Source: a virus
Virus record (IMG/VR): IMGVR_UViG_3300010885_048571
Location: 1-43,731 of that record
DNA: 43,731 nucleotides
Strand: one strand, 5' to 3'
The translations under genes were made by a program, and so were the position numbers. Below the pieces are notes generated by a model. It saw nothing but the letters and a program-made list of their open reading frames with translations. It searched no databases and had not been told where the DNA came from. Of the stretch, positions 3,620 to 41,343 are shown piece by piece (position 1 is the stretch's first letter; the number at the start of each line of letters is the position of its first letter).

Positions 3620-6600
3620 CTAAGTGTGTTCTATTTTAGATTTTCCGCTAGTCTTATTGATCTCTACATGACTATCAACAATATCACGCATTGAATCTAT
3701 ATGCGATATTATCATAATAAATTTAAATTGAGTCTTTAGATAATCAAATAACATTACCATAGAGTTTAGATTACTAGAATCTAATGCTCCAAAACCTTCA
3801 TCTATTGCTAAAAAGTTTGGTTTTGGAAGTGAAGATACATTGATTAAAGCAGTTCTTATTGCCAAACTAGCAACAAATTTCTCCATACCAGATGTAAGTT
3901 CTAATGGCCAAAAATCTTCTTCTGAATATGCGATATAAGCGTTGATTGACTTATCTTCGGCTTGTAATACAATTGAAAAGTCTACAATTTGTGATAAGAT
4001 ATTATTAATCTCTTCTTCTACCGAAGGTATAATACTTGCTATTAGCATATGAGGTATACCATCTCTATGCGTAGCGGCTAAATATTGTTGATAGTCTTTA
4101 AATTGAAGTTCTAAATCTTTAACTGCAGCGATTGCTTTTTGATAAGTGCTTTTACTGTTCTCAGCTAATTTATAATCAATCGTAAGATCTGTGATATCTT
4201 TGTTTATTTGGGCTAACTTATTATCTAGTGTTTTCTTTTCTAACTTTAGTTGAGAGATTATATCATTTATTTCGCTATTTTTTTCAATAGAATCTAAATG
4301 TTCATAATATTCAGCTATATCAAGTTTAATTTTTAGTAATGCATCTTTATATTCTTTATGCTTAGTCTTTATTTTATTGATATCCAATTCCAATTTTGAT
4401 TTTTCCATTTCAAATTTGGTTATTTCAGCAGACATATCATCATACGCGGCCTTATCTATTTGAGATGTCGCGAATTCATCTACTTTATCTTGTATTAATT
4501 GTTGATCATTTTTTAATGATTGTACTAATTCGCTCTCTTTATCGTATTGTTTTCTAGTTTCTATAGCGTCTTTAACAAAAACATTATTCATACAAAAAGA
4601 ACAGTTTTCATCATATTTTAATTCATCTAGCTTCTCTAATTTCTTTTTATTATTATGTAAATTGGTAGTTGCCTTAGCTAATTCTAAATTCTTTTTAGTC
4701 AATAGCTCTCTATTTGTTTTCCATATCTCAAGATTATTTTCGATTAATGTTATATTAACTTTAGATAAGTCTGATGCTCTATTGATCAATTTTGATTCTA
4801 TGTCAATTAAAGAATTAGATTTATCTATAAGAAAATTATCAACTTTAGATATAGAATCTATTAAATTATCTTTAGACATAACAAGATTATCTATATCTTT
4901 AATGGAAGAATTAATTTTTATTAACTCTTGAGTTTTTGATAAGATTTTTTCTTCTGTATCTTGAATAGAATTAGTTACTTCTAATAATATTTCATTCTTA
5001 TCTTCTATTTTTATTTCTAAAGTTTCCATATCAAAAGAAGTTTTCTTTAGTTGCTCTTGATAATCACTCTTTTGATGTTGTTTTAATAATACTGATATGT
5101 CTCTAGATTCATCATTAGCTAGTTGATACAATTCTTCGTATACATTTATGTCTAAGAATTGAGATAATAAGTCTTTACGATCGCTCTGAGACATATCAAT
5201 GAAGCCAGTATTGTTGTTTTGAACTGATAACGCTGTTAGTACAAAGTCTTCATAATTGCCTAAAATAGATCTAATATTTGCGTTAGTATCGCTTCTATCT
5301 TTACCATTTAATGATATTTTATCTTCTCCATCTTTATAATAAAAGTCTACATTTACTTTTACATTACCCGTTTTTTGTTTAATGCCTTTTCTTTCTATCG
5401 TATACTCTCTACTATGTAATTCAAACGTAAGTTTGCAGTAAAAATTATCAGATTGATTGTTCATTACTTGACCAGCTTTGGTAGTCTTTGAACACTTATC
5501 AAATATGCAATACGTAATTGAATCTAATAGCGTTGATTTGCCGCTTGCATTTGGTGCAAATATTCCGTATGTGCCATCCATGTTAGAAAAGTCAATTGTA
5601 TTTCCTTTTCCATAAGAAAACATATTGTCAAACTTAAATTTCTTAGGAATCCACATTGAATTTCTAGGAATTTCAGACTTTGTTAATGACTTGTTTAAGT
5701 CTGTGTTTATGTCAACCACTCTTTTGATTGATTCTTGATCTTCACCAAAAGTCTTAGTTAAAAACTCAGCTAATACTAAGTTTTGATAGTTTACATCTCT
5801 AACATCAATGTTATGCAGTCTTTTTTCTGTCCCTTCAATAGCAGAAAAATCATTCATTTTTTGAATAGATGATTCTATAACATTTCTTGTTTGCTTTATA
5901 TCTGCAACAATGTCTTTTATTACTGATTGAGGCGTATTTTTATATCGAATTCTTAAATATAGATTCTCTGGTAAGTAAGATGGAAGAGGATCATAGATTC
6001 CAGTATCTACATTAATTGTATAGAATGCTGTATCATTTGGTATCTCTATGTATTCAGCTTTCTTATTATCTAATCGCCATACATATATGCCTTTGCCTAT
6101 ATTTTCTCCATGATTTTGTTGAATAAAAGATCCTGGATATCCTATTGTTTGCTCAGCGTTTAAGAATTGTCTTGTATGAATATCTCCAAGAAGAGCTAAA
6201 TCGAAGCCTTCGAAGTCACTAATTTTAAGAGCTTGATCCAATAATTGAGAATTCTCTTTTAATAGTACTCCAGTAACTGGTCCATGAAATAAAGCAATTT
6301 TATATTCTCCATCAACTTTATTTGCGGGGATATATTTGTCTTCTTTATCGAAGACCGACCAATGAACAAATGTTTTATCAGCTATTTTAAATTCGCATGT
6401 ATCTTTTACATATTTTAAATTTGGTTCATTTAAAGCCTCAACAATAGGCGTTAAAGCATCCATTCTATGCGCGTTATTTAAATTAGCGTCATGATTTCCA
6501 GGAATCATAAGCACTTTACCAATAGTACATAAGTTTCTTAAAAAGCCTTGCACCATATTAATTAATTCAGGCGTCACATCTGTTTTAGAGTGTACAATAT

Positions 6601-6757
6601 CTCCAGTTAACACAATTAAACTGTCGTTTGTAAAAGTCTCTTTTATGTAAGAATACAATCTATTAAATGATCTATTATACTCTTCATGTCTCTTAAAATT
6701 TCTAATATGAACATCACTAATATGATAGATTTTGTTCAATTGTTTTAATTTACTCAT
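3620..6757 (-). CDS. Single-chain Mre11-Rad50 (SbcD-SbcC / gp47-gp46) fusion recombination nuclease
   Basis: This 1045-residue protein joins two normally separate subunits. Residues 1-340 are the Mre11/SbcD/gp47 phosphoesterase: DVH 15-17, GD 52-53, GNHD 87-90, a histidine at 158 and GDIH 191-194. Residues from about 370 are the Rad50/SbcC/gp46 ATPase: Walker A PNASGKST near 402-409, long coiled coils, a CSFC zinc hook near 718, the signature LTSGMEKF near 955 and Walker B FLAIDEGFGALDS near 985. In T4, gp46 and gp47 are separate proteins that process DNA ends for recombination-dependent replication. All catalytic motifs look intact, and the reading frame is open throughout. It lies 6 bp downstream of the primase. 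Confidence 0.93.
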   Translation of the reverse strand: MSKLKQLNKIYHISDVHIRNFKRHEEYNRSFNRLYSYIKETFTNDSLIVLTGDIVHSKTDVTPELINMVQGFLRNLCTIGKVLMIPGNHDANLNNAHRMDALTPIVEALNEPNLKYVKDTCEFKIADKTFVHWSVFDKEDKYIPANKVDGEYKIALFHGPVTGVLLKENSQLLDQALKISDFEGFDLALLGDIHTRQFLNAEQTIGYPGSFIQQNHGENIGKGIYVWRLDNKKAEYIEIPNDTAFYTINVDTGIYDPLPSYLPENLYLRIRYKNTPQSVIKDIVADIKQTRNVIESSIQKMNDFSAIEGTEKRLHNIDVRDVNYQNLVLAEFLTKTFGEDQESIKRVVDINTDLNKSLTKSEIPRNSMWIPKKFKFDNMFSYGKGNTIDFSNMDGTYGIFAPNASGKSTLLDSITYCIFDKCSKTTKAGQVMNNQSDNFYCKLTFELHSREYTIERKGIKQKTGNVKVNVDFYYKDGEDKISLNGKDRSDTNANIRSILGNYEDFVLTALSVQNNNTGFIDMSQSDRKDLLSQFLDINVYEELYQLANDESRDISVLLKQHQKSDYQEQLKKTSFDMETLEIKIEDKNEILLEVTNSIQDTEEKILSKTQELIKINSSIKDIDNLVMSKDNLIDSISKVDNFLIDKSNSLIDIESKLINRASDLSKVNITLIENNLEIWKTNRELLTKKNLELAKATTNLHNNKKKLEKLDELKYDENCSFCMNNVFVKDAIETRKQYDKESELVQSLKNDQQLIQDKVDEFATSQIDKAAYDDMSAEITKFEMEKSKLELDINKIKTKHKEYKDALLKIKLDIAEYYEHLDSIEKNSEINDIISQLKLEKKTLDNKLAQINKDITDLTIDYKLAENSKSTYQKAIAAVKDLELQFKDYQQYLAATHRDGIPHMLIASIIPSVEEEINNILSQIVDFSIVLQAEDKSINAYIAYSEEDFWPLELTSGMEKFVASLAIRTALINVSSLPKPNFLAIDEGFGALDSSNLNSMVMLFDYLKTQFKFIMIISHIDSMRDIVDSHVEINKTSGKSKIEHT

Positions 6758-28633: not shown

Positions 28634-29050
28634 ATGGCAAAAAAGAAATACGGTACTAGGTACCACGCAGTAAAAAATGGTTTTAGAAGTGGCTTAGAAG
28701 AAACAGTCTCTACACAATTAACAGAGAGTAAAATAGAATTCGAGTACGAGAGTAAAGCCAACATCGTTAAATACACAGTACCAGCAAGCAATCACACATA
28801 TCTCCCAGATTTTAAACTTCCAAACGGAATTATAGTAGAGACTAAAGGCAGATTAATGTTGGCCGATAAAAAGAAACACATCTTAATTAAAAGTCAACAC
28901 CCAGAATTGGACATTAGATTTGTATTCGGTAATAGTAATGCTAAAATGAGTAAGACTTCAAAGACTACTTACGCAATGTGGGCCGAAAAGAACGGCTTTA
29001 AATGGGCAGATAAACTAATTCCACAGAGTTGGATAGACGAAGTTAAGTAG
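28634..29050 (+). CDS. T7-type endonuclease I (Holliday-junction resolvase)
   Basis: The 138-residue protein closely resembles T7 gp3 endonuclease I throughout: FRSGLEETVS, PASNHTYLPDFKLPNG, VETKG, KKHILIKSQHPELDIRFVF and ADKLIPQSWI. The catalytic set corresponds to E22, D59, E69 and K71 (T7 E20, D55, E65, K67). It resolves branched DNA before packaging and could work with the Mre11-Rad50 fusion. It is the last gene of the rightward block, ahead of a bidirectional terminator. Confidence 0.95.
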   Translation: MAKKKYGTRYHAVKNGFRSGLEETVSTQLTESKIEFEYESKANIVKYTVPASNHTYLPDFKLPNGIIVETKGRLMLADKKKHILIKSQHPELDIRFVFGNSNAKMSKTSKTTYAMWAEKNGFKWADKLIPQSWIDEVK

Positions 29051-29754: not shown

Positions 29755-30756
29755 TTAATACATGAGACTTCTGTATTGAATGGTCTCTAAGAACTGGTCT
29801 TTATTATCACCTAAACTAAAGTTATCTGGGAAAATCCATGTGTAAGGAATGTTCTTAGTTGGTTTCTTTTCTCCGTGAGAGATTGCAATATGCTTCCAGA
29901 AAAAACAAGTTTTATCCTCGATGTTTAAATACTTCTGGCTAGTCATTGGGTTCAATGGGTGATTGACTAATAGATCCATCTGATATAACCATTGCTCAGC
30001 CTGTTTGTTATTAGGGATGAAGTCCCCAGACTCATTAATTGTATACTTAACTTTACCATTTAGATTCTGTCCACCGAATACTTGATGTAGACCATCAAAG
30101 TGACCTGTACCACCAAAAAGAATTGTTTCTGGATTCACCAAATGTGGATAACTCATTGCAATGTATCTAGCTGTATTTTTACAAGGATATAAAGGACTTC
30201 TAAAATTTTGATGCTCTTTAAAATACTTCTCAAGAATCTTAGCGAATTCCATCATTGTATACGGCCCACGTTTACCATCTTCTACATCTTGTAAAACGTA
30301 AGCTAAATTTTTAGCAGCAACTGCAGTACCGTGAAGCAGCCAATGTTTAACGTTTGTGCCTTTTGGATAATAAATCTGAAACAGATCGTTTCTTGCGTGG
30401 CGATTATGTTTAAAGTGATCTTCCATTGCTGGAATATTATTACCAACCAATTGCTTGAATGTGCCCCAATGTTCGTTACTAAAACTAAACACTAGGGTAT
30501 AGAACATTCTTAACTCATTGTCTGTAACTTTATCTCGCATAAAATAACAGTACGGATGTTCGTGCCAATGTAAACGATGGGAAAAGATTTGATACTCGTC
30601 CTTTAATAATGTATCCTCTCTTCGATCAAACTTTTGGCAGAATTCAAAGAACTTTTCAATTCTCTGTTCTAAAGGCCATTGTGCCATCCAAGAGTCTTTG
30701 GGTTTTTTACCTTTAAACTCTGGCGTGCATGTGTCATTATAAAAAATATTTTCCAT
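29755..30756 (-). CDS. Putative thymine-hypermodification amino-acid:DNA transferase-like protein (second paralogue)
   Basis: A 333-residue all-helical protein that I read as a distant relative of the alpha-glutamyl/putrescinyl-thymine pyrophosphorylase / amino-acid:DNA transferase group described in phages with hypermodified thymine. Features are WLLHGTAVAAKNLAYVLQD, then RSPLYPCKNTARYIAMSYPHLVNPETILFGGTGHFDGLH. The helix layout parallels the upstream 389-residue protein. It is the third gene of a coupled operon, its ATG overlapping the previous TAA. Family assignment is by eye; the amine substrate and the chemistry cannot be read. Confidence 0.5.
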   Translation of the reverse strand: MENIFYNDTCTPEFKGKKPKDSWMAQWPLEQRIEKFFEFCQKFDRREDTLLKDEYQIFSHRLHWHEHPYCYFMRDKVTDNELRMFYTLVFSFSNEHWGTFKQLVGNNIPAMEDHFKHNRHARNDLFQIYYPKGTNVKHWLLHGTAVAAKNLAYVLQDVEDGKRGPYTMMEFAKILEKYFKEHQNFRSPLYPCKNTARYIAMSYPHLVNPETILFGGTGHFDGLHQVFGGQNLNGKVKYTINESGDFIPNNKQAEQWLYQMDLLVNHPLNPMTSQKYLNIEDKTCFFWKHIAISHGEKKPTKNIPYTWIFPDNFSLGDNKDQFLETIQYRSLMY

Positions 30757-30757
30757 A

Positions 30758-31927
30758 TTAAATGTATAGTGCGTTAACTTTTTCTTTGTATTGCTCTTCT
30801 GTAATTAACAATGATTTAATCACTTTATCATCAGATGGGTGCCCTGACATGCCATTAAAACTTGGAACTAGATTTAAATCTAACATTGCTTTCTGTCTGC
30901 CATAAGGATGGTCTTTAATAGAAGAGCTATTCCAAACGTGGTCAAAATCTAAATGATCATAATCCCCACCGGGCTTGACAAAATTCTCAATCCACCTAAT
31001 AGAGTCACATGCTACGTCCTCAGCATTATAAGGAAATGAACCTGTGTCTTCGTAGATTTTCATCATTACTGAATCTAAGTAGACTTCTTTTTGCATCTTA
31101 GTAGACTTTGTAGCAAGATACCCAATACACTCAATAGCGTTAGTACCGTAATAGAAAGGACTCTCACGGTTAACAAAATCTGGGAACCAATCGGCAATAT
31201 CTGCAATCACTGCTGCGTATTGAAATCTAAACGCTCTAAGTCCTCTGTTTGTATTCCACTTAAACATGAAATCACCAACTTCACGTAAATCTTTTTTATC
31301 TCCATTTTCTAAGAAATAAGCCAGATCGTAAGATAACTGTGGTACATATTCACAAAGAAAATAATCTCCGCCTCTTTTATAACCTTCAATTGGTTTAGGA
31401 AAACTTGGAAACTGATAACCTACAGACGTGTAGAAAGTTCTCTTCGTACCTTTAATTACTTCTACCATTTGATCGATGTTATCTGCCACATGCATATCTG
31501 ACAACAAAGTATTATAATATCCAGAAGGTTTATAAGCATAATTAATTCCAGATCCAGTTAATCTGTGAAATAAGAATAAATACAACCACTCTTTTAAATC
31601 AAATGTCTGTCTTTTACCTACCCAATTTTGAGAAATAGTTTCTCTTTGTTTAGTCATTAAACCCTCCTTCATCTTATTCCAATACGGGTGATCTTCGCTC
31701 CAACCGTAAAATACGTCATTTACTATTTGGGAGAATCCCGCATATTTCCTCTCTACTACATCGTACAATTCAACGTGCTTCATTAGATCGTCTGGTACAC
31801 TGGATTCAGAGTGCTTTAATCTACCCAAGTTACATTCTTCTTGTTGAGTTTTGGCCATTTGGAAATAGCGAAGGAACTCATCGTAATATTTAGTGGTCTT
31901 TATCCACTTTGGATTTGCTGTTACCAT
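30758..31927 (-). CDS. Putative thymine-hypermodification amino-acid:DNA transferase-like protein (first paralogue)
   Basis: A 389-residue helical protein with LFHRLTGSGINYAYKPSGYYN, CEYVPQLSYDLAYFLENG and FRFQYAAVIADIADWFPDFVN ... SPFYYGTNAIECIGYLA. I associate these with the pyrophosphorylase/amino-acid:DNA transferase proteins of hypermodifying phages (families predicted to replace a pyrophosphorylated 5-hydroxymethyluracil substituent with an amine). Its ATG lies inside the last codons of the MBD4-like gene (TGGTAA read as ATGGTAA), so the two are translationally coupled. Alternative: an unrelated helical DNA-binding protein. Confidence 0.55.
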   Translation of the reverse strand: MVTANPKWIKTTKYYDEFLRYFQMAKTQQEECNLGRLKHSESSVPDDLMKHVELYDVVERKYAGFSQIVNDVFYGWSEDHPYWNKMKEGLMTKQRETISQNWVGKRQTFDLKEWLYLFLFHRLTGSGINYAYKPSGYYNTLLSDMHVADNIDQMVEVIKGTKRTFYTSVGYQFPSFPKPIEGYKRGGDYFLCEYVPQLSYDLAYFLENGDKKDLREVGDFMFKWNTNRGLRAFRFQYAAVIADIADWFPDFVNRESPFYYGTNAIECIGYLATKSTKMQKEVYLDSVMMKIYEDTGSFPYNAEDVACDSIRWIENFVKPGGDYDHLDFDHVWNSSSIKDHPYGRQKAMLDLNLVPSFNGMSGHPSDDKVIKSLLITEEQYKEKVNALYI

Positions 31928-32697
31928 GTTGTTTCTAATTGTCTTTTTGCTTCTAGTCTATTTTTTACTAATTGTGCTTGTTCTCTGTAATAATCTGGAT
32001 CAGTTTCCATCCATTTTTCTTCATTAATCCATTCCTCTCTAGCGAATCCTATACCCGCTATCTTGATGTGCTTTGCTCCCGGTTGATTTAGAGCGATCTT
32101 TTTGGTTTTTTCTATTGCTTCTTCTTGAGTTCTAGCGGTTACCACACACACATAATCTTTGTATTTCATCCAATTTGGCTCAGCGAATCTTGCATCTTTA
32201 TAATGCGCGTAATACACTGAATAAGCTTTCGGTGTTCCCTGCTCCCTTAGAAGTCTCTTTTTCTCTTCCCTTGCCCATTCCACATAGAAATTAAGTACAT
32301 GATCTTCTGGATCTACTTCGTATTCAAATAATTGAAATATCTTCCAAGAATCTAGAGCATATTTACCAACGCCTTTCATCTTCTCTATAGCACTTACAGG
32401 AATGTATAAGCCATTACTGTATTTGTCTACTGCGTCTCTCCATTGATAAGCAAATTCTTTCCATGCTTTAACTCTACGGTTATAGAACCCCAAAGGTTTT
32501 ATAATTTGAATGATCTCATCTTCAGGACAATCTATTAGACTTTGAGCATCTGGGCACTTCATAAAGAAATGCTCTCTGACTTCGTCTACTTGCCTGTGGT
32601 GGGTTTGATTCAACATAAAACAGACGATCAACATTTTAAATGGATCATCTCGGTATTCTTCCTGTCTTGTTAAATAAGGCGAAGTAGGTAATCTCAT
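31921..32697 (-). CDS. MBD4-like HhH-GPD DNA glycosylase-type protein
   Basis: Residues 15-150 of this 258-residue protein follow the glycosylase domain of MBD4: DPFKMLIVCFMLNQT, IIKPLGFYNRRVKAW, a helix-hairpin-helix IEKMKGVGKYALDSWKIF and VDPEDHVLNFY. The aspartate at about 132 matches the MBD4 catalytic Asp, so it appears catalytically competent. MBD4-type enzymes remove thymine or modified pyrimidines from mispairs. The C-terminal ~95 residues are an added, unassigned domain. It heads a three-gene coupled operon with the transferase-like genes. GTTATG start context (AAAAGTTATG). Confidence 0.82.
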   Translation of the reverse strand: MRLPTSPYLTRQEEYRDDPFKMLIVCFMLNQTHHRQVDEVREHFFMKCPDAQSLIDCPEDEIIQIIKPLGFYNRRVKAWKEFAYQWRDAVDKYSNGLYIPVSAIEKMKGVGKYALDSWKIFQLFEYEVDPEDHVLNFYVEWAREEKKRLLREQGTPKAYSVYYAHYKDARFAEPNWMKYKDYVCVVTARTQEEAIEKTKKIALNQPGAKHIKIAGIGFAREEWINEEKWMETDPDYYREQAQLVKNRLEAKRQLETTW

Positions 32698-40109: not shown

Positions 40110-40562
40110 TTAATTATTGTAGTCCACTGTTTCTGTAGTATCTGCTTCTTCTTCTGGATACTTTTTGAATCTCTGTGCCATGGTGATCTTATTCTCTTCT
40201 AATAACTCAACTAAGCCATCAGTAAGTTCGTCTGCGATATTCTCCCAGTTACAGGTATCTATAGACTCCAATTCAAGAGTATTACCGTAATTGATAGTAA
40301 ACTCTGCACTATCATAGTCAACCAATTCATCAGCTGACATATTAGATAAATTTTTACGGATAAACGCTTGAATCACTTCAGCTGCATCTTCTGCATTATG
40401 GAAGAAACCTGCAACTGCTTCATCTGGCTTATCAGCAGCAATCACTTCTTCGGCTGCCACTTTAAACTTCATAAGCACTTGTTCCACATCATCTTTGGTA
40501 TACACAGACGGAAAGGAACTTCTTACTTCTTCAACTGCAAAACTAAATACTCGATCTAACAT
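40110..40562 (-). CDS. Acidic hypothetical protein
   Basis: A strongly acidic 150-residue protein (DDVEQVLMKFKVAAEEVIAADKPDEAVAGFFHN ... ELVDYDSAEFTINYG). Predicted mostly helical, with a low-complexity acidic tail (YPEEEADTTETVDYNN). DNA-mimic proteins share such composition, but nothing more specific supports that. Start context CAATAAAAGTTATG, the recurring GTTATG type. Confidence 0.6.
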   Translation of the reverse strand: MLDRVFSFAVEEVRSSFPSVYTKDDVEQVLMKFKVAAEEVIAADKPDEAVAGFFHNAEDAAEVIQAFIRKNLSNMSADELVDYDSAEFTINYGNTLELESIDTCNWENIADELTDGLVELLEENKITMAQRFKKYPEEEADTTETVDYNN

Positions 40563-40592
40563 AACTTTTATTGTTTTTTATTAATGATTAAA

Positions 40593-40892
40593 TTACTTTG
40601 TGCTTGGATAAAAACCGTAACTTAGATTGTCTTCTACTGGATCTACAGCCCATTCGATATCTTTAATCTTTTGTACTGCATCTACTGCAATTGCATCTGA
40701 TTTCTCTTTCTGTTTAGCTCGTAACTGTTTAATGTCCTCGTCTAATTTATTAATGTACGCTACTAACTCATCAGTCAATTTGTCCTTTACAGACTGCGCG
40801 CGCTCTTTATTAATTCCACCGCCTTCAATGATCGCGATACCTAAAGAGTAGATAATTTCATTTACTTCTAAAACGTCTAATTCTAATTTCAT
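40593..40892 (-). CDS. Small helical hypothetical protein
   Basis: A 99-residue protein, mainly one long charged helix (LVAYINKLDEDIKQLRAKQKEKSDAIAVDAVQKIKDI) likely to form a coiled coil, then a short aromatic tail. No recognised family; lies downstream of a structured intergenic hairpin. Confidence 0.6.
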   Translation of the reverse strand: MKLELDVLEVNEIIYSLGIAIIEGGGINKERAQSVKDKLTDELVAYINKLDEDIKQLRAKQKEKSDAIAVDAVQKIKDIEWAVDPVEDNLSYGFYPSTK

Positions 40893-40933
40893 GCTAACTA
40901 ATTTTTATTTAAATGTGATTGTGATAAATGTAA

Positions 40934-40980
40934 GGTAAGGCGCTTCTTAACAGTATCTTTTGAATACTCTGCGCCCTACC
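40934..40980 (-). terminator. Structured intergenic hairpin, possible terminator
   Basis: GGTAAGGCGC pairs with GCGCCCTACC (10 bp with one mismatch), and an inner AGTAT/ATACT stem fits inside, giving a long bulged hairpin 3' of the gene at 40987-41343. No strong U-run follows, so it may be a processing or attenuation structure instead. Confidence 0.45.
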
Positions 40981-40986
40981 ACGTTG

Positions 40987-41343
40987 CTATTTTAATACAG
41001 TTAGCAACTTAACTGCTTTAGGAGTAAGGCCTGCTTGGATTAGATCAGCTTTCAATCGGCTGATGTTCTGGAATTTACCGTTTTTAACCGCGTACTGCGC
41101 GCAGATCTGATTAATCGTAACAGATTCTTTTTTGAACATGCTAAGGAAAGCGCTGGCCTGCTTGAATTGTGGGCGATTCTTGCAGTGAATCACTTGACGT
41201 TGTCCAAAGAAATTGGTGAACTCTACGTGCAGGCTGCCGCTCTTCTGCTCGTGCATCTTGCTGGGTGCAAATGCGTTATACACTGTTTTCTCGTCGCGAC
41301 TGGTGTTGTATCTTAACTCGTTGAATTCCATTGCTTTGTACAT
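40987..41343 (-). CDS. Basic hypothetical protein
   Basis: A 118-residue, strongly basic protein (LHVEFTNFFGQRQVIHCKNRPQFKQ) with a C-terminal helical half (ISRLKADLIQAGLTPKAVKLLTVLK), possibly nucleic-acid binding. Its ATG is immediately preceded by AAACCAATCAGTT, one arm of a 13-bp inverted repeat (partner 41463-41475) that would bury the start in a hairpin. G+C-richer than the structural genes. Unknown family. Confidence 0.6.
   Translation of the reverse strand: MYKAMEFNELRYNTSRDEKTVYNAFAPSKMHEQKSGSLHVEFTNFFGQRQVIHCKNRPQFKQASAFLSMFKKESVTINQICAQYAVKNGKFQNISRLKADLIQAGLTPKAVKLLTVLK

Follow-up and report, generated by a model that had tools for sequence, protein, structure and literature searches.

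A conserved three-gene cassette of uncultured viruses that may belong to a cytosine hypermodification pathway

The IMG/VR virus record IMGVR_UViG_3300010885_048571 (positions 1 to 43,731; hereafter the window, or G000), which may be a fragment, contains a cassette of three genes, gC, gB and gA, encoded in this order on the minus strand. The first gene, gC (31921-32697), encodes a protein of 258 amino acids (aa) that consists of an MBD4-like HhH-GPD DNA glycosylase domain (approximately residues 1-148) and a small C-terminal domain (approximately residues 157-252). The other two genes, gB (30758-31927) and gA (29755-30756), encode helical proteins of 389 and 333 aa, respectively, that resemble transferases with a glycosylase fold. 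Each of these two proteins contains a near-invariant motif, FYYGTNAIEC in gB (31127-31156) and FGGTGHFDGL in gA (30088-30117). The initial annotation of this DNA proposed a coupled cassette of three genes, the same-strand open reading frames (ORFs) of which we confirm, and had all of them overlapping, which is only partly correct: gC and gB share 7 nucleotides (nt), ATGGTAA (31921-31927), that comprise the stop codon of gC and the start codon of gB, but the TAA stop of gB is separated from the ATG of gA by a 1-nt gap. The three genes are packed as one unit.

Relatives of the cassette were compared across IMG/VR stretches and loci (L numbers), 26 long records (G numbers) and 50,697 cultured phage records. 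In the cassette genes, nonsynonymous change (pN) is far below synonymous change (pS), and the substitutions between gB and its relative in L082 are mostly synonymous, with nonsynonymous (dN) and synonymous (dS) divergence of 0.05 and 1.7, respectively. Furthermore, gA lies downstream of gB, on the same strand and within 1.8 kb, in 73 of the 80 IMG/VR loci with sufficient downstream DNA; given this conserved order and the excess of pS over pN, the ORFs are real genes. gC is located upstream of gB in 34 of 63 loci. Relatives of gA are found in 222 IMG/VR stretches (407 with a profile search), and for gB at least 599 pattern matches were obtained in the same database, of which 458 were confirmed. 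Neither gA nor gB was found among the cultured phage records, and none of the 82 pattern matches to gA in cellular genome contigs was confirmed as a relative.

The glycosylase assignment of gC, already suggested in the initial annotation, is well founded. The protein matches the Pfam HhH-GPD family (PF00730, E=7.7e-8), and a 15-member gC profile compared with solved structures retrieves MBD4 as the best match (E=1.3e-23), followed by endonuclease III (6e-11). The HMMER alignment pairs VDPEDHVLNFY of gC with VHPEDHKLNKY of MBD4 and places Asp132 of gC (codon 32302-32304, minus strand; invariant in 15 relatives) at the position of the Asp that is catalytic in MBD4. The glycosylase domain of mammalian MBD4 is thus the closest solved relative of gC, with the catalytic Asp kept, whereas gC lacks the methyl-CpG-binding domain and has an additional C-terminal domain. 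This glycosylase domain looks accessory to the cassette because, in several loci, the C-terminal domain alone is present upstream of gB, with both gB and gA retained; in L186 and L187, it is a separate 70-aa ORF. Relatives of gC also adjoin, or lie near, genes for DNA alpha-glucosyltransferases (L184, 8388-9605, 1.9e-22; L185, 925-2151, 4.4e-20), and there is no gB or gA at that site in these two viruses. The best gC relatives from cultured phages include AXL1_65 of Stenotrophomonas phage AXL_1 (L086, 11908-14094), which is close to AXL1_63, a thymidylate synthase-family gene whose product has Asp at the specificity position, a pair that suggests cytosine modification in Bosavirus.

The affinities of gA and gB are discernible primarily at the level of protein structure. 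AlphaFold2 models of both proteins are confident, with a predicted local distance difference test score (pLDDT) of 88.1 for gA and 83.6 for gB. When these models were compared by VIA-align to the Protein Data Bank (PDB) chains selected among Foldseek candidates, the top match in both cases was PUGT (8z2n; Z 9.3 for gA and 9.4 for gB, values of about 9 being potentially common among helical proteins). PUGT is gp46 of phage PaMx11, a 5-phosphomethyl-dU (5-PmdU) glycinyltransferase of the ADDT family (PF18724; PDB 8z2m/8z2n). The AGOG 8-oxoguanine glycosylases and the DUF2419 queuosine nucleosidase come next (Z ~7-8), and the helical 5-hydroxymethyl-dU (5-hmdU) kinase proteins of phages SP10 and PhiW-14 are weak Foldseek matches. 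In BFVD, the nearest homologues of gA and gB (50% and 59% identity) are labelled "Amino acid:DNA transferase domain-containing protein" in UniProt; this ADDT profile match was not reproduced. By eye, the motifs GGTGHFDGL of gA and YYGTNAIEC of gB resemble GPGAxxGL of the HMUDK_hel family. A distant homology between gA and gB themselves is probable: the model of each recovers the BFVD homologue of the other with a probability of 1.00, and a gB profile supplemented with a diverged paralogue from G003 matches the gA profile with P=0.003. Together with the association with a pyridoxal 5'-phosphate (PLP) enzyme described below, the modelled fold and the names of the homologues support the view that gA and gB are hypermodification-type enzymes.

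In the relatives, clustering of the neighbouring genes reveals a recurrent set that includes a thymidylate synthase-family enzyme (c26), dCMP deaminase (c25), a PLP enzyme (c7), a GDSH (SGNH-like) protein (c5) and a DUF6378 protein (c9), among others. The gene order is DUF1599, c26, c25, gB, gA, c5, c7 and UvsX in L125, and c5, c7, c9, a short ORF, c25, c26, gC, gB and gA in L168. What is said here of the hydroxymethylase substrate, and of the PLP and c5 context, comes from these relatives, outside the 43.7-kb window. The c7 proteins belong to the same protein family, phrog_7093, as the PLP enzyme of the thymidine pathway of the SN1/M6 phages (SN1_023, E=2e-160; c7 members, 5e-59, 6e-42, 8e-37 and 4e-22). 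Among the 26 long records, c7 is present in all 10 gB-bearing records longer than 110 kb, with G003 counted by its diverged gB paralogue, and is absent from the 170-kb G015, which has gC and no gB. That paralogue (G003, 40160-41224; L270, 2160-3224; 26% identity) lies directly upstream of the PLP gene, and the main cassette of G003 consists of gC, c5 and gA, with no typical gB. As a separate observation, c7-like PLP sequences in L255 and L256, from Erythrobacter and Microcystis phages, are labelled "DNA modification methylase", and the gene of the Microcystis phage lies beside ParB-like genes.

A hydroxymethylase is encoded in every one of the 51 c7 loci whose downstream DNA exceeds 2.7 kb. 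Among the long records, the closest relative of the window is the 174-kb G002 (83%, 82% and 68% identity in gA, gB and gC, respectively). Its cassette lies at 116-120 kb, and the start of the record holds c5, c7, c9 and a dUTPase gene that is cut by the contig end. No hydroxymethylase is seen in G002 because the contig ends before the position that this gene occupies in near-identical c7 contigs, which run on into dCMP deaminase and then hydroxymethylase. The lack of the gene in G002 was therefore dropped as evidence against the pathway considered below.

The specificity site of these hydroxymethylases points to cytosine. Residue 179 of T4 gp42 is Asp. The corresponding residue is Asn in thymidylate synthases as well as in the dUMP hydroxymethylases of SN1, SPO1, PhiW-14 and SFP10; we take this site to set the choice between dCMP and dUMP, an established role of the position in T4 gp42 and in thymidylate synthase. 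The initial annotation assumed a thymine pathway and suggested a search for dUMP hydroxymethylase beyond the window, but every enzyme inspected in the relatives carries the dCMP-type Asp: 11 of the 11 cassette-linked hydroxymethylases, in which the catalytic Cys is conserved as well, and all 55 listed from c7 loci. In the phylogenetic tree, the dUMP hydroxymethylases stand apart (100/98) and four cassette-linked enzymes join T4 gp42 (100/98), the deeper joins being uncertain owing to long branches. When c26 from L125 is compared with cultured phages, the nearest matches are dCMP hydroxymethylases of T4-like phages, some of which are annotated as thymidylate synthase. Moreover, in G007, G009 and G011, an Asp-type enzyme coexists with a canonical thymidylate synthase or with the two end fragments of one. 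Such a combination, seen also in T4, would be expected with ordinary thymine synthesis and altered cytosine. Judged by these sequence features, the substrate of the relatives' hydroxymethylase would be dCMP, and cytosine appears to be the better-supported base; the initial annotation was probably wrong on this point, while a hypermodification-type cassette is indeed what the locus looks like.

We propose, with a probability of roughly 0.58, that the cassette contributes to a viral pathway of cytosine hypermodification at C5 in which 5-hydroxymethylcytosine (5-hmC) is modified further. The group added to 5-hmC would probably be derived from an amino acid. In the putative first step, a dCMP hydroxymethylase similar to T4 gp42, the gene for which is seen in the relatives, would produce 5-hmdCMP and hence 5-hmC in DNA. 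The hydroxymethyl group would then be activated, possibly by c5, after which gB and gA, to judge by their fold and context, would link the methylene carbon of the base in DNA to a new group that is probably an amino acid, and c7, the homologue of the M6 PLP enzyme, could trim the attached group. MBD4-like enzymes are suited to the repair of T:G or hydroxymethyluracil (hmU):G mispairs that arise by deamination of 5-methylcytosine or 5-hmC. By analogy, gC might repair deamination damage at modified cytosines, removing T or hmU mispaired with G; its role in the pathway would be accessory because many loci lack its catalytic domain.

Several observations weigh against this proposal. The window, perhaps as a fragment, contains no hydroxymethylase, PLP or c5 genes; the initial annotation noted that the expected synthase and kinase were missing, and G000 has neither a thymidylate synthase-family gene nor an HMUDK kinase. 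Likewise, no HMUDK kinase (PF18748) was detected at E<=1 in any of the 26 long records, which may be incomplete. The initial annotation likened gA and gB to the aGPT-PPlase/AADT families, and this relationship did not emerge in hidden Markov model (HMM) searches: neither HMUDK_hel (PF18723, aGPT-PPlase1) nor ADDT matched any of the 19 gA and 26 gB members at E<=1, and in the 26 records there was no match to HMUDK_hel at E<=10 and none to ADDT. In hhalign comparisons, the similarity of gA and gB to HMUDK_hel (P 0.10-0.18) and to ADDT (P 0.06 for gA and 0.57 for gB) is not significant and stays so after addition of the C-terminal domain of the phage 44RR protein discussed below or of the G003 gB paralogue. 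The gA and gB profiles found nothing in a PDB sequence search, no confident match to gB emerged when PDB was searched by plain Foldseek, and the fit to PUGT is moderate for helical proteins (Z ~9). Finally, G015 encodes gC without gB or gA. The likeness to the hypermodification transferases is supported by fold, names and company, and sequence membership is not supported.

The activation step might be explained by c5, homologues of which occur in T4-like phages of Aeromonas. In phage 44RR2.8t, the 795-aa product of ORF233c (L369, 6968-9355) combines a c5 part (approximately residues 1-340) with a C-terminal part similar to HMUDK_hel, the latter part recurring in 19 Aeromonas phage records. The C-terminal domain matches HMUDK_hel by profile comparison (P=3.2e-4); searched alone against PF18723, it yields E=8.8e-4 with a score below the Pfam cut-off, which counts against this role of c5. 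Given this fusion, and given that phage SP10 carries a 637-aa protein named 5-hmdU DNA kinase, c5 may be a stand-in for the missing P-loop kinase. According to PMC2993671, none of the known glucosyltransferases accompanies gene 42 in phages 44RR, 31 and 25; phage avDM1 has both dCMP hydroxymethylase and the c5 fusion. ORF233c of 44RR2.8t and 31 has the c5 domain in common with the cassette relatives, and both phages possess gene 42 without a known glucosyltransferase, but the protein differs from the cassette in being a single fusion with no match to gB or gA. A broader and distinctly more tentative scenario, which we would not favor over its negation, is a full cytosine counterpart of the thymidine pathways: 5-hmC would be activated via c5 without a P-loop kinase, substituted by gB and gA and processed by the PLP enzyme, to give amine-bearing cytosines both in the abundant uncultured viruses and, via the c5 fusion, in Aeromonas phages such as 44RR.

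The proposed pathway shares components with known systems and is identical to none of them. The M6-type thymidine pathway, as exemplified by SN1 (outlined here partly after PMC9476957), includes HMUDK_hel, a P-loop kinase, a radical S-adenosylmethionine (SAM) enzyme, a PLP enzyme, ADDT and dUMP hydroxymethylase. The relatives of the cassette similarly combine a hydroxymethylase with a PLP enzyme from the PHROG of the SN1 protein and with a pair of helical glycosylase-fold proteins, but the hydroxymethylase is of the Asp type (dCMP) rather than the Asn type, no HMUDK kinase was found in the records searched, the helical proteins are not recognizable by sequence, and the MBD4-like glycosylase and c5 are added. 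PUGT itself has the solved fold closest to gA and gB among the compared candidates, with 7-12% identity and no significant HMM match. With the 5-hmC pathway of T4, the cassette relatives share a dCMP hydroxymethylase with the Asp179 equivalent, and in the T4 order 42, b-gt, uvsX, the L125-type cassette holds the place of b-gt between hydroxymethylase and uvsX; unlike in T4, the alpha- and beta-glucosyltransferases were not found when searched for in G002 and G003. In the sections of PMC12783734 used here, the CmoX/CmoY pathway of Synechococcus phage S-B43, which makes 5-carboxymethylcytosine-glycine, likewise places an amino acid at C5 of cytosine in phage DNA, but employs a methyltransferase and an ATP-dependent amide ligase, with no hydroxymethylase, PLP enzyme or glycosylase-fold transferase described. 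CmoX/CmoY being a different route, no published amino acid-type cytosine modification derived from 5-hmC was found in the literature searched.

The same components can be read in other ways. The fold comparison that leads to PUGT also ranks AGOG and the DUF2419 nucleosidase close behind, and gC itself is a glycosylase, so that gA and gB could be base-releasing DNA N-glycosylases or nucleosidases that, together with gC, repair DNA, exchange bases or attack the DNA of the host. We consider this unlikely: PUGT outranks both for gA as well as gB, several loci keep gB and gA beside a gC remnant without the glycosylase domain, and a repair model has no ready role for the tightly linked PLP enzyme and hydroxymethylase. 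Thymine hypermodification, in which 5-hmdU in DNA would be activated and gA and gB would attach an amino acid, draws on the fact that the nearest solved fold is that of a 5-PmdU glycinyltransferase, on the PLP enzyme in common with the M6 thymidine pathway, and on the dCMP deaminase and dUTPase of the cluster, which would provide dUMP. Thymine was rejected as the modified base because of the Asp-type hydroxymethylases of the relatives, four of which cluster with T4 gp42; the HMUDK kinase missing from the 26 records and the T4-like pairing of enzymes in G007, G009 and G011 also make this variant quite improbable.

The least probable of these alternatives retains cytosine as the base and changes the substituent, with a glycan or another non-amino acid group being added and gA, gB and c5 acting in a glycosylation-like route. 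Genes compatible with such a route do occur: a family 2 glycosyltransferase (GT2) and UDP-galactopyranose mutase directly follow gB, gA and c7 in L133 (9137-11414), L124 and L130 share these gene clusters, in G003 a pair of group-1 glycosyltransferases comes after the hydroxymethylase, and c5 is near UDP-galactopyranose mutase in Aes508. It is the PLP enzyme, however, and not these glycosyltransferases, that is conserved along with the cassette, and PLP enzymes work on amino compounds. Further modification of 5-hmC, probably with an amino acid-derived group, is the reading that we prefer.

If this interpretation is correct, viruses make amino acid-type decorations of cytosine with the kinds of enzymes used in the thymine pathways and a different activation step. 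Such a new DNA base chemistry would bear on evasion of restriction and Cas systems and on sequencing artefacts, and would add new DNA-modifying enzymes; the cassette may represent a new branch of the known viral DNA camouflage, in which the usual activating enzyme was not found. In 2010, the question was raised whether T4-like phages with gene 42 and without the known glucosyltransferases live with plain 5-hmC (PMC2993671). Because 44RR and 31 carry the c5-HMUDK_hel-like fusion, this question can be tested in cultured phages.

Two other features of the region can be mentioned. Just past the cassette, the window encodes a T7-type endonuclease I (28634-29050, plus strand; PF05367, E 5e-53), in place of which many relatives have a GIY-YIG gene on the opposite strand after gA. 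Elsewhere in the window, a 1045-aa ORF (3620-6757, minus strand) matches an SbcD-like PHROG with residues 8-300 and an SbcC-like PHROG with residues 268-1044, so that both SbcC/SbcD subunits are apparently combined in a single protein.

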